A DNA stretch of 38,313 bases from a virus. This document shows positions 6,659 to 33,333 of this stretch, in pieces. Both the position numbers and the translations under genes were made by a program. The notes below the pieces were generated by a model, which was not told the DNA's origin, searched no databases, and was given only the letters and a program-made list of their open reading frames with translations. The stretch's first letter is position 1. Each line of letters begins with the position of its first letter. Location: positions 1 to 38,313 of the IMG/VR virus record IMGVR_UViG_3300018041_000019. One strand, 5' to 3'.

Positions 6659-7240
6659 ATGGCAAATTTAAAAGACATTTTTACTAAAAACCAATATGAC
6701 TTAGGTGCTGCAGCTAAACAATCTAAGACATGGTTTCAGCGACAAGCAAGGTTATTAGGACAGCAAAGAGCTACTCCTAATGCTATGCTTAAAAGCGATC
6801 CATCTGCTATGCGAGCTAGTATTAGACCTGGTAATTTATATATGTTCTTATATGATGCTAAAACTAAAGATACATTACCATTTTGGGATAGATTCCCATT
6901 AGTATTTCCATTTAAAAAAACTGCAAATGGCTTTATTGGATTAAATATGCACTACCTTCCATATCAAGGAAGAATACAATTATTAGATAGATTAATGGAT
7001 TTTGCAAATAATAAACGTATGGATGAAACAACTCGTCTTAATTATTCGTGGAGACTAATAAATGGAGTTTCTAAATTTAGATTGGCACAGCCATGTGTTA
7101 AACAATATTTAGCAGATCATGTACGATCATCACTTAGACAAGTGAATTCCTCAGATTGGGCAACAGCGATGTTATTACCAGTAGAACAATTTACTGGTGC
7201 TGCAAAACAATCAGTTTGGGCAAATTCACTAAGAGGATAA
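6659..7240 (+). CDS. Conserved head/tail assembly protein, possibly gp2-like DNA end protector
   Basis: A 193-residue basic protein with PGNLYMFLYDAKTKDTLPFW and GFIGLNMHYLPYQGRIQLLD at about residues 58-112. I recognise it as a conserved neighbour of gp4 in marine T4-like phages but cannot place it in a family with certainty. In T4, gene 2 (the DNA end protector) lies beside gene 4, so a gp2-like role is the best guess from synteny. A late promoter octamer ends 5 bases before the ATG and there is no Shine-Dalgarno sequence. Its stop is one base from the ATG of the tube-initiator gene. Confidence 0.6.
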   Translation: MANLKDIFTKNQYDLGAAAKQSKTWFQRQARLLGQQRATPNAMLKSDPSAMRASIRPGNLYMFLYDAKTKDTLPFWDRFPLVFPFKKTANGFIGLNMHYLPYQGRIQLLDRLMDFANNKRMDETTRLNYSWRLINGVSKFRLAQPCVKQYLADHVRSSLRQVNSSDWATAMLLPVEQFTGAAKQSVWANSLRG

Positions 7241-17589: not shown

Positions 17590-18054
17590 TTACGCAATCA
17601 ATCCAGTTTTATACACAGTTCTACCATTTTCTTTCATTGCCGTTAATACTTGTTTACGGTTATCACCATTTGCTTTGTATGATACATGCACCCAACCAGA
17701 ATCAGGAATACCTGGAGTATAAAATTCTAATATCACTTGATCAAATTCTGTATGGTCTACAATCCATTGTGCTACTTCAGCATTAGGAACACCTGGTACT
17801 TCAATGTCTACTGCTTCACCTCTACAATGTTGACTATTACTCGAACCACCAACTGCTTCATTTAGTGCTGGTCCTCTGTATCCTGAGTTAATGACTGTTG
17901 GACCAAATCGATCTCTAATAGGTTGTACTACATTCTCAAATAAAGCTGTACATGCTTCTAAATGAGTATCATTTGGAGTATTGTCTATATCTAGTCTAAG
18001 TGCTGTTTGACTCTTAGTATATTCGGCTAGTGTAAAGTTTTTAGATAAATTCAT
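17590..18054 (-). CDS. M15 family zinc D-Ala-D-Ala peptidase
   Basis: A 154-residue protein with zinc ligands H76 (SQHCRGEAVD), D83 and H123 (GWVHVSYK), and N-terminal MNLSKNFTLAEYTKS typical of the Peptidase_M15_3 type. It has no signal peptide. Its layout is the same as the C-terminal domain of the gp5-like spike, so the two are probably paralogues. A free copy could be a second endolysin acting on peptide cross-links, or a cytoplasmic peptidoglycan recycling enzyme. It begins just after a terminator and has AAGGAAAA before the ATG. Confidence 0.85.
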   Translation of the reverse strand: MNLSKNFTLAEYTKSQTALRLDIDNTPNDTHLEACTALFENVVQPIRDRFGPTVINSGYRGPALNEAVGGSSNSQHCRGEAVDIEVPGVPNAEVAQWIVDHTEFDQVILEFYTPGIPDSGWVHVSYKANGDNRKQVLTAMKENGRTVYKTGLIA

Positions 18055-24071: not shown

Positions 24072-24401
24072 TTATTTATTAGGGGTATTTTTGCTTTCGT
24101 ATGCAGTCTTACCAAAGAATGCCATAACAATTGCAGCTACAGAAACAAAATATGTTGCTGCCATATCTCCTAATATTTTACTTGCAGAATCTAATCCAGA
24201 TAATATTGCTAGTATAACAGCAACTGGGTATAATAACATGCCAAATAATGCGAACCATGTCATTTGTCTTTGAGCATCTCTCATTGCATCTTCGTCTTCA
24301 AGCTTTTTACGCTTAAATTCCATATACATTTTATGCTCTTCAGTTGAAACTTTACCATCCCCGTTGGTATCTGCTGGGTGAAATTCTTTCTCTTCTGACA
24401 T
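24072..24401 (-). CDS. EF-hand membrane protein (two transmembrane segments)
   Basis: A 109-residue protein from the ATG at 24401 (MSEEKEFHPADTNGDGKVST), with GGAGAGAG 5 bases upstream. DTNGDGKVSTEE is a canonical calcium-binding EF-hand loop. Two hydrophobic segments follow (about residues 43-63 and 72-94). Similar EF-hand/two-helix proteins occur in marine T4-like phages, where a holin-like role has been suggested but not shown. Here it lies directly downstream of a membrane adenylate cyclase, so a calcium-sensing role in the same pathway is also possible. Confidence 0.7.
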   Translation of the reverse strand: MSEEKEFHPADTNGDGKVSTEEHKMYMEFKRKKLEDEDAMRDAQRQMTWFALFGMLLYPVAVILAILSGLDSASKILGDMAATYFVSVAAIVMAFFGKTAYESKNTPNK

Positions 24402-24469
24402 TTTTACTCTCTCCAATAAAAAATAATTTTACTTTAATTCCAACTTATTATAATATAACTGTATTGGGT

Positions 24470-26479
24470 TTACTTACTAGTTGCTTTATAAACACCATCC
24501 CAATTAATAGGTGGTACAGAATACATTCTCTCTGCCATATTCTCATAGTATGTAATAAGAAATGGATTAGATTCTTTTAGTTTAGTTGTTAATAAAGAAG
24601 CTGCTCTCCATTCTCCTGCATAGTAAGCACGAAGAAACTTTTTATGAGAAGCAAGATCATCTATATCTGCAATGGTAAATATTTTAACACCAATCGATTT
24701 ACCTTTTACTGCAATGGTATCTAACTCAACTACATTATATTTATATTTTACTAGATTTGCAGTATTCTCACCTATAATGATTCGAACACCATAGTTTTTA
24801 GATTGGCCTTCAAGTCTAGCAGCGAGATTAACGTGATCACCAAGGCATGTATAATCAAACCGCTGATCAGAACCCATATTGCCTACCACAACATTTCCTG
24901 TATTGATTCCCAATCCCATTCCAAATGCAGGAATACCTTCTTGAGTAATTTCAGCATTAAATTTATCTAAATCCTTAAGCATTTCTAAACCAGTTTTTAC
25001 TGCATTTATTGCATGTTCAGTATCATCAATGGGTGCATTCCAAAAAGCCATCTGAGCATCACCGATATATTTATCTATAGTACCATTATTCTCTAGTATC
25101 TTTTTAGTCATGGCTGTCATGTATCTATTCATGATCTTAGTTAAACCTTGTACATCTTCACCATAATGTTCTGATATTGTAGTAAAGCCACGAACATCAG
25201 TAAACATAATAGATAGTTCTCTTGTTTCGCCACCCAATCGTAATAATTCAGGATTCTTTTGTAGTTTTTCAACTAAAGCTGGAGATAGATAGGTACCAAA
25301 TTGTTTTTTAATCTGTTGTTTCTGTTTAAATTCTGATATGAACTTAACTCCATATGCATGAAGCATAATAAGTATACCACCGCCTAATATCAATGTTGCA
25401 TCAAATAAGAATAAGTGTTGACTATATACATAACTTGTAATAGGTACCACTGAAGCTAATAATAATATACCAGTACCTAATCCTACATATACCCATCGAG
25501 ATAAGACTAATAAGATAACAGTCAATAGTATCAATGTTATTAGTTCGGCTCCAGCAGCCCAATCTGGTCGTTGTATATTGATACCACTTGATAATGTAGC
25601 TATAACAGATGCTTGTACTTCGTGTGGCCAAGTTTCACCTCTACTAGTTGCTATAGGATTGGCAATACCTGCAGCTGTGGTTCCTACAATAACTATACTA
25701 CTATCAAATGTTTCGGGTAATTCAGTTAAACTATAAGATACTGGTCTTTGTTGGTAATCAATCCACACTCTACCAATAGGATCAGTAGATAGTATTCCAA
25801 ACTGAGGCACTCTGAGTTTATCAATACCTATATCACTAAACTTTATTTGAAAACTAGGATCACCTGCTAATATTCTTAGCACTTCTAATCCCATACTAGG
25901 ATATAATGTATCACCACTTCGTATAACCATTGGCATTCTTCGAGTAACACCATCTACTTCAGGGAATGTTGTAGCAATACCTGTACCATATGCACGACTT
26001 TCTAATGCTTCAATTGATGCAACGATACCTGGGTATTCTACGACCTTACCAGTAGGATCACCAATCATTACAGCGCCTGGATTACGTGGATGGTTTTTTG
26101 TTTTATCACTACCAAAGTTTGGAAGTACCACTGGATATTCTTCCATAGTTTTAGCTAGTATAGAATCTTTTCCTAATCTATCTGCTTCAGGCATAAGCAC
26201 ATTGAATACAACTAATCCAGCACCTTTTGCATATAACTCTTTAATGATATCAGCATAGATATCTCGACTAAATGGCCATTGACCATATTTTTCTAACGAA
26301 GCTTCGTCTATATTAACAGTAGCGATAGTGGTTTGTTGTTCAGGTGCAGATGTAATGAGTGTATCAAAGTACCGCAATTGCATACTTTCAACAAACATTG
26401 GAGATTGTATTTTAATGAACACTAATATACATAAAGTAATAAGTGCTGACCATGGAGTAAATAGATTTATTTTTTTCAT
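24470..26479 (-). CDS. CHASE2-domain membrane adenylate cyclase (class III)
   Basis: A 669-residue protein. An N-terminal membrane helix (about 11-27) is followed by an extracytoplasmic CHASE2 sensor (about 30-300: FDTLITSAPEQQTTIATVNI, VVFNVLMPEADR, SSIVIVGTTAAG), three helices (about 311-329, 333-352, 359-377) and a class III cyclase (about 420-605). Active-site residues are intact: metals D428 (FTDVRGFT) and D474 (YIGDAQMAF), purine selection K470 and D542 (FDYT), transition state N551 and R555. K plus D predicts ATP, not GTP. The tail (610-669) is helical. A phage-borne membrane cyclase implies cAMP made in response to an outside signal. No SD is visible before the ATG. The gene follows the PA14/curlin gene. 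Confidence 0.92.
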   Translation of the reverse strand: MKKINLFTPWSALITLCILVFIKIQSPMFVESMQLRYFDTLITSAPEQQTTIATVNIDEASLEKYGQWPFSRDIYADIIKELYAKGAGLVVFNVLMPEADRLGKDSILAKTMEEYPVVLPNFGSDKTKNHPRNPGAVMIGDPTGKVVEYPGIVASIEALESRAYGTGIATTFPEVDGVTRRMPMVIRSGDTLYPSMGLEVLRILAGDPSFQIKFSDIGIDKLRVPQFGILSTDPIGRVWIDYQQRPVSYSLTELPETFDSSIVIVGTTAAGIANPIATSRGETWPHEVQASVIATLSSGINIQRPDWAAGAELITLILLTVILLVLSRWVYVGLGTGILLLASVVPITSYVYSQHLFLFDATLILGGGILIMLHAYGVKFISEFKQKQQIKKQFGTYLSPALVEKLQKNPELLRLGGETRELSIMFTDVRGFTTISEHYGEDVQGLTKIMNRYMTAMTKKILENNGTIDKYIGDAQMAFWNAPIDDTEHAINAVKTGLEMLKDLDKFNAEITQEGIPAFGMGLGINTGNVVVGNMGSDQRFDYTCLGDHVNLAARLEGQSKNYGVRIIIGENTANLVKYKYNVVELDTIAVKGKSIGVKIFTIADIDDLASHKKFLRAYYAGEWRAASLLTTKLKESNPFLITYYENMAERMYSVPPINWDGVYKATSK

Positions 26480-26489
26480 TTATTATTTA

Positions 26490-27842
26490 TTAGTTCTGAG
26501 TAACCGTGGCTGAGCAACCACCAATAGTATAGCAAGTTTGTTCCAGACTGTATGATTGGTCTAGTGAACTGTTTTGATCTAGTGTTACTGAACTGGATGC
26601 TGATCCGTATGTTAACGAGATTGAAGCATCATGATTTCCTAAACCTTGTTGTGTTAAGTCAACTGAATGTCCGTTACCTATTAATTCAATCTCAGCATAC
26701 TTACTGCTATCACCTTTTTGTATTACATTAATTAAATTTGAATTACCTGTTACTGTTGAGAATAGTTTTTTGCTATAGTCGTTTGCCTGGAATACATCTA
26801 TAACATTACTATCACCTATTAGGTCAATGCCTACATAATGTCCCTGATTGACGGTATTATTACTTTGTACAACATCAATGTCATTTAAGTCACCAAACAA
26901 ATCTAAACTTATGGTATGTCCTCCCGTAGCGACAGTATCTATTGCACCTGTACCATTAACTCTATCCTGATATAATAATATATCATTTGTACTACCAACA
27001 ACTGATAGTTCTATTAAATTGGGATCAGTGGTATTTGGAGACCCTTGCATAATCTCAATGGTATTTGAATCGCCTGTGATAACACCAGCACTGGCTCCGT
27101 CAATACCTCTTATATGATTGCCTGCTGTGCCTTGTTGTGTTATAGTAACAGTATTATTATCACCTGCTTGATCTATATAAACTGAGTTGTCACTATTTGA
27201 ATTGTATGTGCTGGCTCGTGTTCTTGCTGAAGTAATTTCTGTTGATTGACTACCACTAATACCTGGACTGGATCCAGTTACAGTTGATGTTGAGGGCGGT
27301 GTGTATGTTGTAGCATAAACTGAAGTTGGAACAATAGCAACTGAACCTGTTTGGTCCCAATATAACTTAACTGCGGCACCTCCACCGTTTTCATACATCC
27401 ACATATCTAGGTAATATGTAGACCCACCTGTTAATGTTTGATCTGTTGAAACGTAATTCCAAGTTCCAGCGCCTTGTTCTTGCCAATCATCAATTACAAC
27501 TGTGCTGTCCAATTTCATGTAAACGCCATCATCAGCATAGAGATAGAATTGTATGTCCTGACTGCCTGTATCTGGTATAGTAATGTAACCATAGAAGTGT
27601 ACGATAACTCGATCAGTCTGACCGGAATCTAACACAGCACCACTGCTCCAATTGAAATCTATGCCTGTGACAGTACCTGAACTTAACGCAGTGGGATAAG
27701 TTAAACTTCCACCATTGCCTGGAAATGTGGGATAGGCGCCTGTGCCCTGATAGGTATCGTAGTATAAATCAGCTTCGGCTTTTGTTGCGAAAAAATGCGA
27801 CACGATTAACACTAAGAATGCTATGAATATTGATTTATACAT
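26490..27842 (-). CDS. Secreted PA14-lectin/curlin-repeat fusion protein
   Basis: A 450-residue protein with a signal peptide (MYKSIFIAFLVLIVSHFFAT, cleavage near KAEA). Residues about 28-180 match a PA14 domain (FYLYADDGVYMKLDS, STYYLDMWMYENGGGAAVKL), a carbohydrate-binding module. After a Ser/Thr-rich linker come curlin-type repeats from about residue 220: VYIDQAGDNNTVTITQQGTA, IDVFQANDYS, INVIQKGDS, VDLTQQGLGN, each with N-x-(I/V)-x-(I/V)-x-Q-x-G spacing. This suggests an amyloid-type fibre subunit tipped with a sugar-binding head. Its ATG overlaps the FecR stop (TAATG), so the two are made together. Confidence 0.85.
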   Translation of the reverse strand: MYKSIFIAFLVLIVSHFFATKAEADLYYDTYQGTGAYPTFPGNGGSLTYPTALSSGTVTGIDFNWSSGAVLDSGQTDRVIVHFYGYITIPDTGSQDIQFYLYADDGVYMKLDSTVVIDDWQEQGAGTWNYVSTDQTLTGGSTYYLDMWMYENGGGAAVKLYWDQTGSVAIVPTSVYATTYTPPSTSTVTGSSPGISGSQSTEITSARTRASTYNSNSDNSVYIDQAGDNNTVTITQQGTAGNHIRGIDGASAGVITGDSNTIEIMQGSPNTTDPNLIELSVVGSTNDILLYQDRVNGTGAIDTVATGGHTISLDLFGDLNDIDVVQSNNTVNQGHYVGIDLIGDSNVIDVFQANDYSKKLFSTVTGNSNLINVIQKGDSSKYAEIELIGNGHSVDLTQQGLGNHDASISLTYGSASSSVTLDQNSSLDQSYSLEQTCYTIGGCSATVTQN

Positions 27843-28945
27843 TAGTTCTGTCTCGTAGTGATATTGGTAGTACCTTCACTATTAACTCTGTTAGTTATAT
27901 CAACCGCACCTTGTATTTGACGTATAGTTGTTTCTTGCGTTGTAGGTACGTTAACACAAGATATATCACTACCTGTTGTATTCATACACAGTTCAATAGA
28001 TATGCTATCAGTAGTATATGTTACACCTTGGTCAGGAATAAAATCTGGAAGCAATTCATTCTTATCTGAAGTGGATAGTGTTCTTGATTGTGACATAGCT
28101 AGTTGTAGATCTAGTATGTCTAATACATTCTTTAAGAAGTCTCTATCTAACAAGTTTTCACTAAGTCTATCTGTATATATCTCAGATAGGTCTTTGTCTA
28201 ATTCATTTTCTAATAGGTTTTGATCTAAGGCATTGTCATCTAATAGACTAATTGTAGTATTATCCATTTCTTCATCTTTAAATTCTTTTGGCGGTCCTAC
28301 GATAATGATTTGTCTAATCATTTCTTCTGTTAGATCAACAATGACTGGTGAAGTAGGCTTTGCTTCTAGGTTAGGTACGCGAGTAGCTTCAAATGGTTTA
28401 TTCATTAAGACACTACCGCCTAGACTAGCAACTTCAATAGAACCTGTAACGCAATCACGTTCAATGTCTAACCAACCAGGAGGACAACTTGGCAATAGAA
28501 TAACTGTGGTACTACCTATCTCATCTACTGTGGCGGTAAAATCAGTACCACGAACGGATACTGTGGCACTTGGTGTTCTAATTTTAACTGATTGTGGATT
28601 GTTTTTTGCGATTTGACCTGATGCGTAACGAGCTGTACCAGATGCTATTTTGATTGATAGTTTACTTGCATCTGCATTTTTTGGATCGTAAACAAAGTCA
28701 TCAATGATTAACTTTGCTGATTCTGTCATTTGAACCTGAGTAAAATCTTCAAATGTAATTTCTAAAGTACCTTGACCAGTACGTAGAGTATCTAACATCT
28801 CTACATTGGTACCCATAATACCTTCTAATGTTAAATTTTTTCTTTTAATACTTGCAGGATCATGTTTTTGATCACTAATAGTTCCTATAGCACTATGAGA
28901 TATTATTGGTACAATTGTCAGTAGTGCTATTAGTAACTTTTTCAT
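27842..28945 (-). CDS. Exported FecR-domain protein
   Basis: A 367-residue protein with a Sec signal peptide (MKKLLIALLTIVPIISHSA). A FecR domain fills about 38-145: GTLEITFEDFTQVQMTESAK, SIKIASGTARYASGQIAK, SVKIRTPSATVSVRGTDFTA. The centre has an acidic helical region (about 230-290: LLDDNALDQNLLENELDKDL). The end (TTIRQIQGAVDITNRVN) resembles a curlin repeat. FecR domains act in the periplasm in signal relay or surface-polymer binding, and in bacteria often neighbour CHASE2 proteins, as here. AGGAAAGAAT precedes the ATG. Confidence 0.82.
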   Translation of the reverse strand: MKKLLIALLTIVPIISHSAIGTISDQKHDPASIKRKNLTLEGIMGTNVEMLDTLRTGQGTLEITFEDFTQVQMTESAKLIIDDFVYDPKNADASKLSIKIASGTARYASGQIAKNNPQSVKIRTPSATVSVRGTDFTATVDEIGSTTVILLPSCPPGWLDIERDCVTGSIEVASLGGSVLMNKPFEATRVPNLEAKPTSPVIVDLTEEMIRQIIIVGPPKEFKDEEMDNTTISLLDDNALDQNLLENELDKDLSEIYTDRLSENLLDRDFLKNVLDILDLQLAMSQSRTLSTSDKNELLPDFIPDQGVTYTTDSISIELCMNTTGSDISCVNVPTTQETTIRQIQGAVDITNRVNSEGTTNITTRQN

Positions 28946-29042
28946 ATTCTTTCCTATGTAACTCTATTTCATAAAGTGTTTGAGCATTGAATGCATTAAC
29001 ATATTTATTCCATAGTTCATTTTTTTTCAAGATAGTTTCCAT
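28893..29042 (-). CDS. Possible 49-residue protein between curlin and FecR genes
   Basis: An ATG at 29042 overlaps the stop of the curlin gene (TAATG) and opens a frame METILKKNELWNKYVNAFNA, then QTLYEIELHRKEYEKV, which overlaps the FecR start and ends at 28893. The helical charged first 35 residues look coding; the last part, read in the FecR leader, does not. It may serve mainly to couple FecR translation to the curlin gene. Confidence 0.4.
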   Translation of the reverse strand: METILKKNELWNKYVNAFNAQTLYEIELHRKEYEKVTNSTTDNCTNNIS

Positions 29043-29953
29043 TAGTCTGACTGTATCAAACTCCAAGTATTACTTGAGCCTGTTATATTAATATTAGCAT
29101 CATTATCTTGAGCACCTGTTTGAGATGAAGATACAGTGTTACTTCCGCCTGTAATATCTAACTCAATGTTGTGTCCAGCTGTACCAGTACTACCATTTTG
29201 TGTGGCTGTAACCAGGTTACTCGAACCAATAATACCAATATTCATAATGTGATCACCAACATCAGTTTGTGATGTTGTTACAACGTTGCTTGATCCATTT
29301 ATATCTAGATCGAAGAACATACCACCTACACCACCTATACCACTTTGTGTAACACCAACATTATTAGCTGAACCAATTACATCAATATCAAGGATAGCAT
29401 TGTCGCTAGACAAGTTAAGTGTTGCAAGGTTAGCACCACCGCCACTTATAGCTACACCTACTGTGGTTGTGTCAGCGTTGATGGTAAAGTTAAAGTCATT
29501 GTAACTACCACCTGTTGCTGTTGCAATTAGACTGTTGCCAGTACCTAGTAGATCAAACACTAGATCGTTGTTATCACCAGTCATTTGTATGTCAGCAGTG
29601 TTATTGGCTGCAACTCCTAGTCCGTCACCATTAACATCAATACTTGCTACAGAGTTTGAACCTGTAATGTAGTAAGTTAAATCAATACCAACACCTGATG
29701 CTACTGTTGTGTTTAAATCAATACCTAACAAGTTACTACCACCAATTTGCTGTATGTCAACAGTTTGACTACTACCAGTAATCGTAGCTGCTGTTCCTTC
29801 TGTATCACCAATACCGTAGATCTTGTTTCCACTACCGTCTTGTTTTAGATCGATGGTAGATGAACTACCAATTTGATCAATATAGATACTATTGTCTGCA
29901 CTAAAAGCTAATGATATAGTAAATAATGAATATAAAAAGATTATATGTTTCAT
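29042..29953 (-). CDS. Curlin-like fibre subunit (CsgA/CsgB-type repeats)
   Basis: A 303-residue secreted protein from the ATG at 29953 (MKHIIFLYSLFTISLAFSAD), with AGGAGTAAAA upstream; a longer in-frame start at 29983 lies inside csgG. After the signal peptide (cleaved near AFSA) come many repeats of the curlin kind: IYIDQIGSSSTIDLKQDGSG, VDIQQIGGSNL, VGVTQSGIGG, VVTTSQTDVGD, LVTATQNGS, TVSSSQTGAQD, with glutamine/asparagine ladders. Size is twice E. coli CsgA (about 151), so it should form a longer beta-solenoid. It is encoded directly after CsgG. A nucleator, CsgB, is not separately seen; the PA14 fusion could fill that role. Confidence 0.85.
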   Translation of the reverse strand: MKHIIFLYSLFTISLAFSADNSIYIDQIGSSSTIDLKQDGSGNKIYGIGDTEGTAATITGSSQTVDIQQIGGSNLLGIDLNTTVASGVGIDLTYYITGSNSVASIDVNGDGLGVAANNTADIQMTGDNNDLVFDLLGTGNSLIATATGGSYNDFNFTINADTTTVGVAISGGGANLATLNLSSDNAILDIDVIGSANNVGVTQSGIGGVGGMFFDLDINGSSNVVTTSQTDVGDHIMNIGIIGSSNLVTATQNGSTGTAGHNIELDITGGSNTVSSSQTGAQDNDANINITGSSNTWSLIQSD

Positions 29954-29964
29954 TTTTACTCCTA

Positions 29965-30750
29965 TTATGTGGCGAAATCCCAAATATCTTTGCGTTCGCC
30001 TTCTTTTATTAATTCAACTACAGCTGCTTCAATTGTAGTTTTTACTGCTAATGTAGCTGGTTCATTTAATGTTATACCAGACTCAAATTCAAATATTTGT
30101 GTTGCATTATCATAAAATTTTAATATAGCCATACTATCAGCGGTAGAGTAAATTGTTTTTTGTACATTTACCGCAGCTAATACTGCTCCTGTATTAACAC
30201 TTACTGCTCTTAAACTTACCGTAATAATATCTTCACTAAACTGTGTTTGTGGTCCAATACCTAAAACTCTCATTCCTACACCACCACTTCGTGTAGATGA
30301 ATCATATCCTGTTATACCACCTTCAATAATCATACCAGCAAATTTCATTGGCATAAGTTTCTTAGCATTAGGACCATCATATGCTTCACGCATTTGTCGT
30401 ATAATCTGTCTTTCTTGAGTTAAACTTGCAAGACCAACCCGTTCTACGACATCAAACCATTTACTGTTACCAACATCTTTTAATGCTTTAATTAAGAAAC
30501 TTTCTGCTCCTTGTGTAACAGCAGTACTAAAACTTGCCTGAGTATCACTAGGTCTTCTTTGACCTGTTTTATCAGTAAAACTATATACAGCAACCGTTAC
30601 TTTACCGAGTGCTGGCTGGTTTATTGTATCAAATTCTTTAGCAGTCGACTTTTCAACAAGTACAGGTGGTTCGTATTTACCATTAATAGTCTGTGTAGTA
30701 GCACATCCGTTTAATAATATAAAGGATAGTAATAAAATTAATGTTTTCAT
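29965..30750 (-). CDS. csgG: CsgG curli secretion pore, outer-membrane lipoprotein
   Basis: A 261-residue protein; E. coli CsgG is 277. It has a lipoprotein signal (MKTLILLLSFILLNGC, lipobox LNGC). Alignment to CsgG is clear through KVTVAVYSFTDKTGQRRP, FSTAVTQGAESFLIKALKD, WFDVVERVGLASLTQERQII, MIIEGGITGYDSSTRSGGVG and LGIGPQTQFSEDIITVSLRA. CsgG forms a nonameric outer-membrane channel that exports curli subunits. In the constriction loop, E. coli Y51 and N55 are not conserved here (PSDTQASF), while F56 is. Its start overlaps the CsgF stop (TAATG). CsgE is not seen in the window. Confidence 0.93.
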   Translation of the reverse strand: MKTLILLLSFILLNGCATTQTINGKYEPPVLVEKSTAKEFDTINQPALGKVTVAVYSFTDKTGQRRPSDTQASFSTAVTQGAESFLIKALKDVGNSKWFDVVERVGLASLTQERQIIRQMREAYDGPNAKKLMPMKFAGMIIEGGITGYDSSTRSGGVGMRVLGIGPQTQFSEDIITVSLRAVSVNTGAVLAAVNVQKTIYSTADSMAILKFYDNATQIFEFESGITLNEPATLAVKTTIEAAVVELIKEGERKDIWDFAT

Positions 30751-31202
30751 TAAAATGTAAAGTCACCCAATGGTATAGTCAATGATGTTGTAGTTCCTGC
30801 CATATCAGTTACACCTAACACTATATCACCTGAACTTTTATCCCAAGTAATAATATTACCTTCAAAGTTTAATGTTCCAGATGTTGGACTAGTGCCATCA
30901 TCATTAAACATTGCTGTAGCTACGTCTTGTGAAATTTGTGCGTAGATACGTGATTCCAAATTGCTCATGAATTTTTTAACGTTTGTACTTTCTGCTTCAC
31001 GTTCTGCTTCTTTTAATGCAGATTCTATCTTATCAGATATAGCTTTTTTACGAGAGTGTTCTTGATTTTCAATTGTTAAGACGTGTGCGGAATAGCCATT
31101 CCCATTAAACGCTGGACTTTTAAAATTAAAGTCACGTAATGGTTGTGCTAATGCAATACTACTAAATACAAGACTAAGAATCAGTATCTTTTTTGCGAAC
31201 AT
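30750..31202 (-). CDS. csgF: CsgF curli assembly factor
   Basis: A 150-residue protein with a signal peptide (MFAKKILILSLVFSSIALAQ). The mature N-terminus (PLRDFNFKSPAFNGNGYSAH) corresponds to the CsgF segment that plugs into the CsgG vestibule (E. coli FQFRNPNFGGNP...). A helical stretch (about 50-90) and a beta-rich C-terminus (ITWDKSSGDIVLGVTDMAGT) follow, as in CsgF (138 residues in E. coli). In E. coli CsgF anchors the nucleator to the pore exit. Its start overlaps the preceding holin-like gene by 29 bases. Confidence 0.9.
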   Translation of the reverse strand: MFAKKILILSLVFSSIALAQPLRDFNFKSPAFNGNGYSAHVLTIENQEHSRKKAISDKIESALKEAEREAESTNVKKFMSNLESRIYAQISQDVATAMFNDDGTSPTSGTLNFEGNIITWDKSSGDIVLGVTDMAGTTTSLTIPLGDFTF

Positions 31203-31443
31203 TTTTTTCCTCTTTCTCTCTTAAAGACAAAATAACATTCACTTTCTGATTTAATCTAATCAAATCATTATCTAACATTCTAATGCGATCTATAAGTTCT
31301 ATCAATACTTTATTTGATTCACTTAATACTGGGTCTATTTCATTAGTAACCCATTTCCATATATAAAATACAAAATATCCTAGTCCACCAGCAGCAAGTA
31401 TAGGAAATCCATATTGATTAACTATAACAGTTATATTATCCAT
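31174..31443 (-). CDS. Holin-like membrane protein (paralogue 2)
   Basis: An 89-residue protein: short N-terminus (MDNITVIVNQYGFPILAAGG), one membrane segment (about 12-31), then a long amphipathic helix (VLIELIDRIRMLDNDLIRLN) and a charged tail. It has the same layout as the protein at 31952-32230 (GFPI..A..GYFVF, then LDxRxxxMxxDxIRxxxKV). This layout resembles BhlA/UviB-like holins. It overlaps csgF, so a role as a membrane partner of the secretion system is also possible. Confidence 0.6.
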   Translation of the reverse strand: MDNITVIVNQYGFPILAAGGLGYFVFYIWKWVTNEIDPVLSESNKVLIELIDRIRMLDNDLIRLNQKVNVILSLREKEEKNVRKKDTDS

Positions 31444-31532
31444 GATAGTATAAGTCCAACTACAACTCCAATAACAAAGGATATAAACATATCTTTATCA
31501 TACCATATTGGCATATAAGGTAATTTTTTCAT
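31431..31532 (-). CDS. 33-residue single-pass membrane peptide
   Basis: From an ATG at 31532 that overlaps the TGA of the nuclease gene (ATGA) to a TAA at 31431-31433, overlapping the next gene's start. MKKLPYMPIWYDKDMFISFV is followed by IGVVVGLILSWII: one hydrophobic helix of about 18 residues. Tight overlaps on both sides support translation. Function unknown. Confidence 0.55.
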   Translation of the reverse strand: MKKLPYMPIWYDKDMFISFVIGVVVGLILSWII

Positions 31533-31948
31533 AGTTTTACTTTACCTTCTTTGATTAATCGGTTTCTGTTTAATAGATGTTTTTCTTCAACATCATCTTT
31601 ACTTCCACCAAAGTATGCAACAGCGTAACCTTCATTAATCATAATGTCAGTAACCATTTCTGTTCCATCATTAGTAGTAAAGTCACCTAATATTCTGCCA
31701 AATTTACCTTTAGCATCATACTTGGCGCATTTAAGAATAGACTTCTTACCTAATAATTGTTTGAGTTTTTCTTTTGCAGCTAGACCAAATACTTTTTCTA
31801 CTTTGTCTCTTGTGCGTGATTCTGGCGTATCAATGCCGACGATGCGAACTCTCTCATTTGCTAATACAACTCCAAATCCTAAATCAATATCAACGTCAAC
31901 GGTATCGCCGTCGACTACTCTTTTAATAGTAACGTAATATGTAAACAT
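31529..31948 (-). CDS. Staphylococcal nuclease-like (thermonuclease) protein
   Basis: A 139-residue protein of the SNase family. Motifs are VVDGDTVDVDID near the N-terminus, RIVGIDTPESRT (the catalytic R and metal-binding D with the E), and KYDAKGKFGRILGDF with the second catalytic R. There is no signal peptide, so it probably works in the cytoplasm, for example on host DNA, unlike many bacterial secreted forms. Embedded between two holin-like genes. Confidence 0.85.
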   Translation of the reverse strand: MFTYYVTIKRVVDGDTVDVDIDLGFGVVLANERVRIVGIDTPESRTRDKVEKVFGLAAKEKLKQLLGKKSILKCAKYDAKGKFGRILGDFTTNDGTEMVTDIMINEGYAVAYFGGSKDDVEEKHLLNRNRLIKEGKVKL

Positions 31949-31951
31949 GGT

Positions 31952-32230
31952 CTAGTCCCTTCTAGCATCTGTCTGTTCAGCACGTGCAATTCTATCTAAA
32001 TCTGGAGGTATACCTAATGCGTGGCTTACTTTTGTATCAATGCGGATAACATCATGGTTCATTGTAGACACTCTTTTATCGAGTGCTTTAATGATTCCTG
32101 ACATACCTTTAACTGATCCAGTTACTCCCTCTAAGATAAACCGAACTGTTAAGAATACAAAATAACCTGCTGCACATGCTCCGGATATAGGAAAACCGAC
32201 GTCGCCTATAAATTGGAAAATCTCTCTCAT
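31952..32230 (-). CDS. Holin-like membrane protein (paralogue 1)
   Basis: A 92-residue protein: MREIFQFIGDVGFPISGACA, one membrane segment to about residue 34, then a helix with IIKALDKRVSTMNHDVIRID and a charged C-terminus (RIARAEQTDARRD). Same architecture as 31174-31443. A late promoter octamer ends 5 bases before the ATG and no SD is present, so the mRNA may be leaderless. Lysis holin, or membrane adaptor of the curli-like cluster, are both open. Confidence 0.6.
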   Translation of the reverse strand: MREIFQFIGDVGFPISGACAAGYFVFLTVRFILEGVTGSVKGMSGIIKALDKRVSTMNHDVIRIDTKVSHALGIPPDLDRIARAEQTDARRD

Positions 32231-32235
32231 ACATC

Positions 32236-32243
32236 TATTTATA
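32236..32243 (-). promoter_or_regulatory. T4-type late promoter 5 bases before an ATG
   Basis: Minus strand TATAAATA, GATGT, then ATG at 32230. This is the same spacing as at 6646-6653, which predicts a transcript starting at the start codon. It could drive the whole curli-like cluster late in infection. Confidence 0.55.
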
Positions 32244-32250
32244 TGGAAAC

Positions 32251-33333
32251 TTACTTCAAATTGCGGACTTTGGATTCTCTTTTGATTCTCTCGATTTCTA
32301 AATCTGTTTCATATCTACCAAGATTTTTACCAACTGGGTCATTTTTGGGCTCAATTGGATCAACCACAGGTTCACTTTTCGGGTCTGGATCTAACCATTT
32401 CCTTTTAGTTTTTTGTGGTACTCTTATTTTAGCATTACTTTTAATGCTACCCAAATCTTTTTTCTCAGGAATTATTAAAGATTCGGGCTGTTGCTTTTTT
32501 ACAATAGGTTCTTTTCTTATTGGTGCATTAATCGGTGCTCGAGGTGGACTTGGATGTGATTGTTTCCATGACCAGTTAGCAGCAATAAGCATCAATACAG
32601 CTAAAGGATCAAATACAATAACAATCATTATAATCATTCCTCTTACAGCTTTTTCTAAAAGGTTCTTATCAGGATTATTACCATATATTAATGCTGCAAT
32701 ATATTTAATAGGTCCAACCTCAGCTTCAAGTTCACGTAAGTTTTTAGATATAGGTGCTTTTGATTGTTGTAGTTCAATAATCTTATCTTGTGACTTTTTA
32801 ATATCAGCAGTAAATCTAGCCCGATCTCTTCCTTGTGATCGTCGTATTTTTAATGCTCTTTCAGCAACATCTTCAACATAAGTATTATTTTGTTTATCCT
32901 TTAGTGTTCTACCTTCTGATTCCATTTTACGATTAACAACATCATCCATTTGCTTGATAAGAGACTTATTATTCTTAATAGTTTCTCTTTCAATATTGAT
33001 TTGTTCATCGATGAATACAATCTTTTCAGCAATATCACCAGTTGGTATAGCTTGATCTAAATGAGCTTTAGATAAGAAACCAAATATACCCATTGAAGTA
33101 ATAACCATGAGTATAATAACGGCAAAAGTTAAATAAGTTTTGAGTAAGAATGGAGCAGGCCTCCAGTTTCTATATAACCAAGATGCTACTACTAATTTAG
33201 AAACTTCTAATACACTACCCATAACAAGAATAGGAACTACAGCTGCAGCAAAGATAGCAGCTAATCCCATTAAAGAATAAAACGCAGCAATAACCGATAA
33301 GGTTAATGCGGATATAAACATTAGAATTGTCAT
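32251..33333 (-). CDS. Membrane protein with central coiled coil and proline/lysine-rich tail
   Basis: A 360-residue protein. Three hydrophobic segments lie at about 5-28, 30-52 and 66-88 (TYLTFAVIILMVITSMGIFG), followed by a coiled coil (about 105-205, IDEQINIERETIKNNKSLIK and similar), a fourth hydrophobic segment (about 230-255, MIIMIVIVFDPLAVLMLIAA) and a proline/lysine-rich cytoplasmic tail (260-360). I recognise this as a membrane protein found in marine T4-like phages; no function is established to my knowledge. It is coupled by a 4-base overlap to the pyruvyltransferase-like gene. Confidence 0.65.
   Translation of the reverse strand: MTILMFISALTLSVIAAFYSLMGLAAIFAAAVVPILVMGSVLEVSKLVVASWLYRNWRPAPFLLKTYLTFAVIILMVITSMGIFGFLSKAHLDQAIPTGDIAEKIVFIDEQINIERETIKNNKSLIKQMDDVVNRKMESEGRTLKDKQNNTYVEDVAERALKIRRSQGRDRARFTADIKKSQDKIIELQQSKAPISKNLRELEAEVGPIKYIAALIYGNNPDKNLLEKAVRGMIIMIVIVFDPLAVLMLIAANWSWKQSHPSPPRAPINAPIRKEPIVKKQQPESLIIPEKKDLGSIKSNAKIRVPQKTKRKWLDPDPKSEPVVDPIEPKNDPVGKNLGRYETDLEIERIKRESKVRNLK

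Follow-up and report, generated by a model that had tools for sequence, protein, structure and literature searches.

A phage-borne curli secretion and fibre module was identified in a 38 kb viral record (IMG/VR record IMGVR_UViG_3300018041_000019, positions 1 to 38,313; this whole stretch of 38,313 nucleotides is referred to as the window). One compact run on the minus strand encodes CsgF, CsgG, a curlin, FecR, a second curlin with a PA14 domain, and a CHASE2 adenylate cyclase. We tentatively propose, at a probability of roughly 0.4, that the module makes a sugar-binding curli fibre late in infection, that FecR tethers this fibre, and that its state is reported to the cyclase. Curli genes carried by phages occur widely among aquatic viruses. 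The initial annotation of this DNA had described a cluster for curli secretion and fibres, and every gene that it named is present on the minus strand at the position given there. The genes of the run are as follows.

30750..31202, minus strand: CsgF-like exit factor (Pfam CsgF 1.6e-12; phrog_35372)
29965..30750, minus strand: CsgG outer-membrane pore lipoprotein with lipobox LNGC (Pfam CsgG 2.7e-49)
29042..29953, minus strand: curlin-repeat fibre subunit with eight curlin-type strands (Pfam Curlin_rpt 8e-4, just below the family cut-off)
27842..28945, minus strand: FecR-domain protein with a signal-peptide-like start and a C-terminal curlin strand, ending TTNITTRQN (Pfam FecR 1.7e-10)
26490..27842, minus strand: PA14 lectin-type head with curlin repeats, a candidate fibre adhesin (PA14 3.7e-10; Curlin_rpt 7.1e-7)
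24470..26479, minus strand: CHASE2 adenylate cyclase (Pfam CHASE2 2.2e-37; cyclase 1.3e-20)

Gene content and conservation of the module

All five genes by which we recognise a phage type VIII secretion system (csgF, csgG, curlin, FecR and cyclase, together and in fixed order) are present in the window. The identical gene order recurs in HTVC008M, Melnitz and dozens of IMG/VR contigs, and the cluster is therefore not a product of chance. The system is real and conserved, and the window is a further member of a module already outlined in 2022, when CsgF, CsgG, CsgA/B, FecR, a second curlin, an adenylate cyclase and a "histidine kinase" (HK) were reported from pelagiphages of the Podoviridae and Myoviridae (Wittmers, 2022; PMC9599517). 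Because that study published the link between cyclase and FecR, the link is not new, as the initial annotation had thought it might be. The published module has one or two small upstream genes followed by csgF, csgG, curlin, FecR, second curlin and cyclase in the order seen here, and does not differ in kind. What the present analysis adds is a count of how often csgG lies near the cyclase, the curlin tail of FecR, the lectin-type heads, a T4-type late promoter box where the unit starts, the absence of a kinase domain from the gene in the "HK" place, the bacterial copies, and the missing receiver for cyclic AMP (cAMP).

The clusters of HTVC008M and Melnitz (csgF-csgG-curlin-FecR-curlin-cyclase, with CsgG 45-47% identical) were described earlier. 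For the group's phages, csgF and csgG were reported with unnamed companions and sibling capture was proposed (Zaragoza-Solas, 2020; PMC7029224), and both that study and the one on Melnitz (Buchholz, 2022; PMC9004378) called the fibre genes missing. The module is also present on two very large viral contigs of 337 kb (L090) and 328 kb (L098), which are probably from jumbo phages.

In 57 of the 58 viral contigs with good flanks the cyclase and FecR genes travel with csgG, as the initial annotation had supposed they might, and a check across the viral loci for related phages in which they are unlinked from csgG revealed none. When csgG was the seed, every non-redundant viral locus with sufficient flanking sequence had FecR (41/41) and the cyclase (25/25). 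Of 29 fully flanked contigs found with the cyclase as seed, 28 had csgG, csgF and FecR in the locus itself; in the other (L086), csgG is located about 14 kb away on that contig (L010). When the distant Melnitz cyclase was used to seed a second sample, linkage was seen throughout (29/29, or 47/47 if only the upstream flank is required). In nine loci of the first cyclase sample csgG and the cyclase are on opposite strands yet near each other, so the linkage survives inversion of the cyclase and is independent of a single operon. As these samples are the best 80 matches of larger sets, with near-duplicates included, distant exceptions are possible.

Several genes of the window are T4-like, including those for baseplate proteins, gp32, helicase loader, PhoH and ribonucleotide reductase. 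The gp32 is nearest to those of HTVC008M and Melnitz (~50% identity), and the T4-like gene set is nearest to that of HTVC008M, as expected of a pelagimyophage. The source is a T4-like aquatic phage that is nearest to HTVC008M and Melnitz; SAR11 is a candidate host only.

The CsgF and CsgG proteins

The CsgF of the window matches the family of bacterial curli systems (48.1 bits; cut-off 25.8), and a search of solved structures with the single sequence gave no match. A profile of the relatives of CsgG matches solved CsgG (3x2r/6l7a) at 7e-70. Among csgG-like sequences we noted a 1,499-bp record labelled "Salmonella phage" (OR851715.1), which is probably a bacterial fragment. As in bacterial curli operons (csgBAC/csgDEFG and their alphaproteobacterial versions), a CsgG pore, CsgF and curlin repeats are encoded. 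Unlike them, the phage module adds FecR and the cyclase, both of which are absent from 10/10 canonical Hyphomonadaceae curli loci.

A curlin strand at the end of FecR

FecR opens with a signal-peptide-like stretch. Its FecR domain follows from about residue 22, and then come a linker and a C-terminal curlin tail. The periplasmic FecR domain is evident from both Pfam and its fold. The N-terminal cytoplasmic part that binds sigma factor and the transmembrane segment are absent, and the FecR domain directly follows the signal-peptide-like stretch; this architecture does not agree with the classical relay role given to FecR in the initial annotation.

Among 47 phage FecR representatives (at 60% identity), a curlin-type strand ends the protein in 44, with 5.3 expected by shuffling. 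A loose curlin motif was found in 4/29 tails of FecR proteins from outside curli loci (Caulobacterales), which differs from the phage set at a Fisher p of 8e-13. When a matrix built from curlin strands alone was used, the tail was the best window in 40/47 phage FecR proteins and 2/29 controls. Residue Q366 is invariant across 39 sequences. The AlphaFold2 model shows a FecR domain at a predicted local distance difference test score (pLDDT) of ~90, a helical linker of low confidence, and a C-terminal beta unit at 80-89. The fold matches that of the signalling domain of PupR; it also matches 5ix9, the cell-surface anchoring domain of an antifreeze adhesin, with a TM score of 0.72 to the target.

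Given the curlin strand at its end, phage FecR is probably a fibre tether or nucleator rather than an anti-sigma regulator. Periplasmic retention modules are known to keep adhesins in their outer-membrane pore (PMC13090378), and in adhesins of the LapA type the anchoring domain (5ix9) is the one that resembles the FecR domain. These adhesins differ in that they use type I secretion and have tether and adhesin in one chain, and we infer the likeness of use. Our search of the literature on FecR combined with curlin found nothing relevant.

Curlins with lectin-type heads

For the first curlin, the ATG at 29953 is the likelier start, as a TTG at 29983 would overlap csgG. In the second curlin, the PA14 domain of the window retains the D-D metal motif (ADDGVYMKLD). 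In bacterial adhesins, PA14 domains are located distally and bind sugars (PMC6650083). Among 48 proteins encoded between FecR and cyclase, a set that includes glycosyltransferases or other insertions besides curlins, we identified Curlin_rpt in 22, PA14 in 11, F5/8C in two and GLEYA in two. The heads of the second curlin are therefore varied, and by their domain matches are of lectin type (PA14, F5/8C, GLEYA). A structure predicted for the PA14-curlin protein from one sequence had a pLDDT of 46 and was not used.

Small membrane proteins and a late promoter box

The following features were identified upstream of csgF.

32236..32243, minus strand: T4-type late promoter -10 box TATAAATA, 13 nt upstream of the start codon (ATG) of the unit's first gene
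31952..32230, minus strand: small membrane protein 2, 92 residues, one transmembrane helix and an amphipathic helix (phrog_18771)
31529..31948, minus strand: staphylococcal-nuclease-like protein (Pfam), between the small membrane proteins
31174..31443, minus strand: small membrane protein 1, 89 residues (phrog_18771), overlapping csgF

The two proteins of ~90 residues are paralogues, each with one transmembrane helix and an amphipathic helix. Among 30 fully flanked viral loci found via the second phrog_18771 gene, all have the cyclase and 25 have csgG at a distance of 10 kb or less. The list of members in the initial annotation thus stands for the curli, FecR and cyclase genes, and its EF-hand gene is replaced by these two membrane proteins as constant companions. 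The nuclease-like gene is present in few relatives only, is not a constant member, and is missing from the HTVC008M and Melnitz clusters. A histidine kinase among the small upstream genes was considered and rejected, as no kinase domain was found in these proteins of 89-92 residues with one transmembrane helix. Judged by where they lie and how many there are, these genes probably correspond to the published "histidine kinase"; it is the "HK" label of Wittmers (2022), rather than membership in the module, that looks wrong for these genes. Upstream of the module in ~30 relatives, and at 32251-33333 of the window, is a gene for a 360-residue protein with transmembrane helices and a weak tetraspanin match.

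The spacing of 13 nt between TATAAATA and the start codon is identical before the gene at 6659. In relatives, the late box occurs before the second phrog_18771 gene in 36/127 cases and before csgF in 8/145, and before none of 666 HK-like-1, csgG, curlin, FecR or PA14-curlin genes (background 0.35% per window searched, and 2.7% of other open reading frames). Where a small-membrane gene is upstream of csgF, the box is at that gene in 29/94 cases versus 1/94 at csgF; where it is not, the box moves to csgF (7/41). This restriction to the head of the unit supports one late unit. Together with the TAATG overlaps, which are exact for CsgF/CsgG (at 30750) and FecR/PA14 (at 27842), it upholds the single transcription unit proposed in the initial annotation, and the T4-type box suggests that the unit is expressed late. 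Sigma-70 promoters in the window were not above the level of shuffled sequence, and no riboswitch or other structured RNA was matched in it by Rfam.

The CHASE2 adenylate cyclase

The cyclase has both domains of a class III CHASE2 enzyme and all six catalytic residues (D428, K470, D474, T544, N551 and R555), so the active site is complete. Two of the catalytic positions vary among relatives (T/D/S and N/S). In 31/155 cyclases (L007, L017, L021, L026, L027 and others), D and S replace T544 and the catalytic N551, and the activity of these proteins may differ from that of the enzyme in the window. CHASE2 cyclases of S. meliloti respond to an outer-membrane barrel protein (PMC13001267). A class III cyclase was found in none of 61 Pelagibacter genomes (the genus of one Pelagibacter assembly).

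Copies of the module in bacterial genomes

The five-gene core csgF-csgG-curlin-FecR-cyclase was identified in 3/80 csgG loci from bacterial assemblies, two of them Caulobacteraceae and one Hyphomonas TMED17 (L168, L169 and L173), on contigs with ordinary metabolic genes. These three loci lack the small membrane pair, and each genome encodes one CHASE2 protein, that of the module. Their CsgG proteins are nested among phage sequences in a supported clade (99/97) and are separate from all other bacterial CsgG (100/99). This tree, the root of which is not fixed, is more simply read as transfer from phages into bacteria. Six further loci (L166, L167, L171, L176, L194 and L210) were excluded because they probably lie on phage contigs that had been assigned to bacterial bins; the bins are Flavobacteriaceae, Rhodobacteraceae, Pirellulales or Pelagibacter, and four of these contigs have the phrog_18771 pair.

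Proposed role and alternative explanations

In the proposed model, the phage would produce a type VIII secretion pore late in infection, along with a fibre that has a sugar-binding head. The outer-membrane pore would be CsgG, with CsgF as its exit; both curlins would be exported and then stacked, and the PA14-headed curlin would be the lectin of the fibre. FecR would serve as tether and nucleator, with its folded domain in the periplasm, its flexible linker threaded through the pore, and its C-terminal curlin strand as the first rung of the fibre. The FecR domain would be opposite the periplasmic CHASE2 domain, and the state of pore or fibre could be relayed over the inner membrane as a cyclic nucleotide. 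The fibre may hold neighbouring host cells close to the burst, or mask the cell surface.

Several observations weigh against this proposal. A Pfam search of the unit's genes identified neither the gate CsgE nor the chaperone CsgC, and Melnitz-infected cells showed no clumping (PMC9004378). The likeness of FecR to 5ix9 is weak by sequence (profile E 0.15), and the Hyphomonas FecR is without a curlin tail. A domain binding cyclic nucleotide monophosphates was found in none of HTVC008M, Melnitz and six large relatives, and a weak one is present in only 5/61 Pelagibacter genomes; the cAMP output suggested in the initial annotation is therefore doubtful. In addition, FecR-CHASE2 pairs without curli genes occur in Caulobacterales (seven loci), and FecR may therefore signal without involvement of the fibre.

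A more specific version has FecR doing two jobs, as the curlin-strand tether and nucleus and as a periplasmic domain that reports engagement of the fibre to CHASE2. The module would then be a previously undescribed contact-sensing amyloid adhesin spread by phages, the five-gene core of which was acquired from them by some Alphaproteobacteria. We regard this as doubtful.

It is unlikely, in our view, that FecR and the CHASE2 cyclase simply signal as a pair to tune host physiology, with the curli genes as output or input and FecR as a regulator of the kind known from iron-citrate signalling (the view of Wittmers, 2022). The curli-free pairs of Caulobacterales and those of Campylobacterota (PMC9239204), in which a FecR protein likewise adjoins a CHASE2 cyclase, are consistent with such a role, as are the fold match to the signalling domain of PupR and the intact active site of the cyclase. 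However, the FecR tails in those clusters are not curlin-like, whereas the phage protein has a curlin tail and is without the sigma-binding part, and a receptor domain for cAMP is missing from the tested phages and most Pelagibacter.

A pore of CsgG and CsgF that functions in lysis or the uptake of large molecules instead of fibre export (Buchholz, 2022; Zaragoza-Solas, 2020), with holin-like small membrane proteins, seems improbable. A lysis role was proposed for the csgF/csgG cluster of Melnitz, and would fit the late-type promoter box and the small membrane pair as a constant companion, 3/12 members of which have a weak holin family match (best 5.5e-5). Yet the curlins, the curlin-tailed FecR and the lectin-type heads are retained alongside the pore, and in the bacterial chromosomal copies the small pair is missing although pore, curlins, FecR and cyclase are kept. 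That fibres are made for superinfection exclusion by receptor masking, rather than for aggregation or retention, is very improbable: surface fibres with lectin-type heads would suit this purpose, and phages of this group have other genes thought to alter the host surface (PMC7029224), but late expression would postdate most attempts at superinfection.

Tethering of the fibre by FecR, if borne out, would be a new means both to anchor an amyloid fibre and to sense it, and would revise the interpretation of FecR and "HK" published for these modules. The data make loose proposals testable with regard to the location of FecR, the role of its curlin tail, the sugars bound by the heads, and the existence of any target for cAMP.

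Neighbouring genes

One gene that the initial annotation counted with the unit lies beyond its end.

24072..24416, minus strand: EF-hand-loop protein with two transmembrane helices (EF-hand match 18.2 bits, family cut-off 25.9), outside the curli unit

The loop DTNGDGKVSTEE has the canonical calcium-binding pattern despite the sub-threshold match. Membership in the curli unit was rejected, as relatives occur in phage lysis cassettes and are rarely near the module (2/17 csgG loci and 3/29 cyclase loci). In HTVC008M and Melnitz they are located by tail genes on the other strand, and in roseophages and a Limnohabitans phage they adjoin endolysin, spanin, holin or peptidase genes. By this gene context, the protein is a lysis-cassette neighbour and not a curli component. 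The family (window 24072-24416; L162-L165), found in roseophage lysis cassettes, is a candidate lysis protein. Elsewhere in the window, a protein with a Peptidase M15 domain (17590-18054; 8e-19) is a candidate endolysin.

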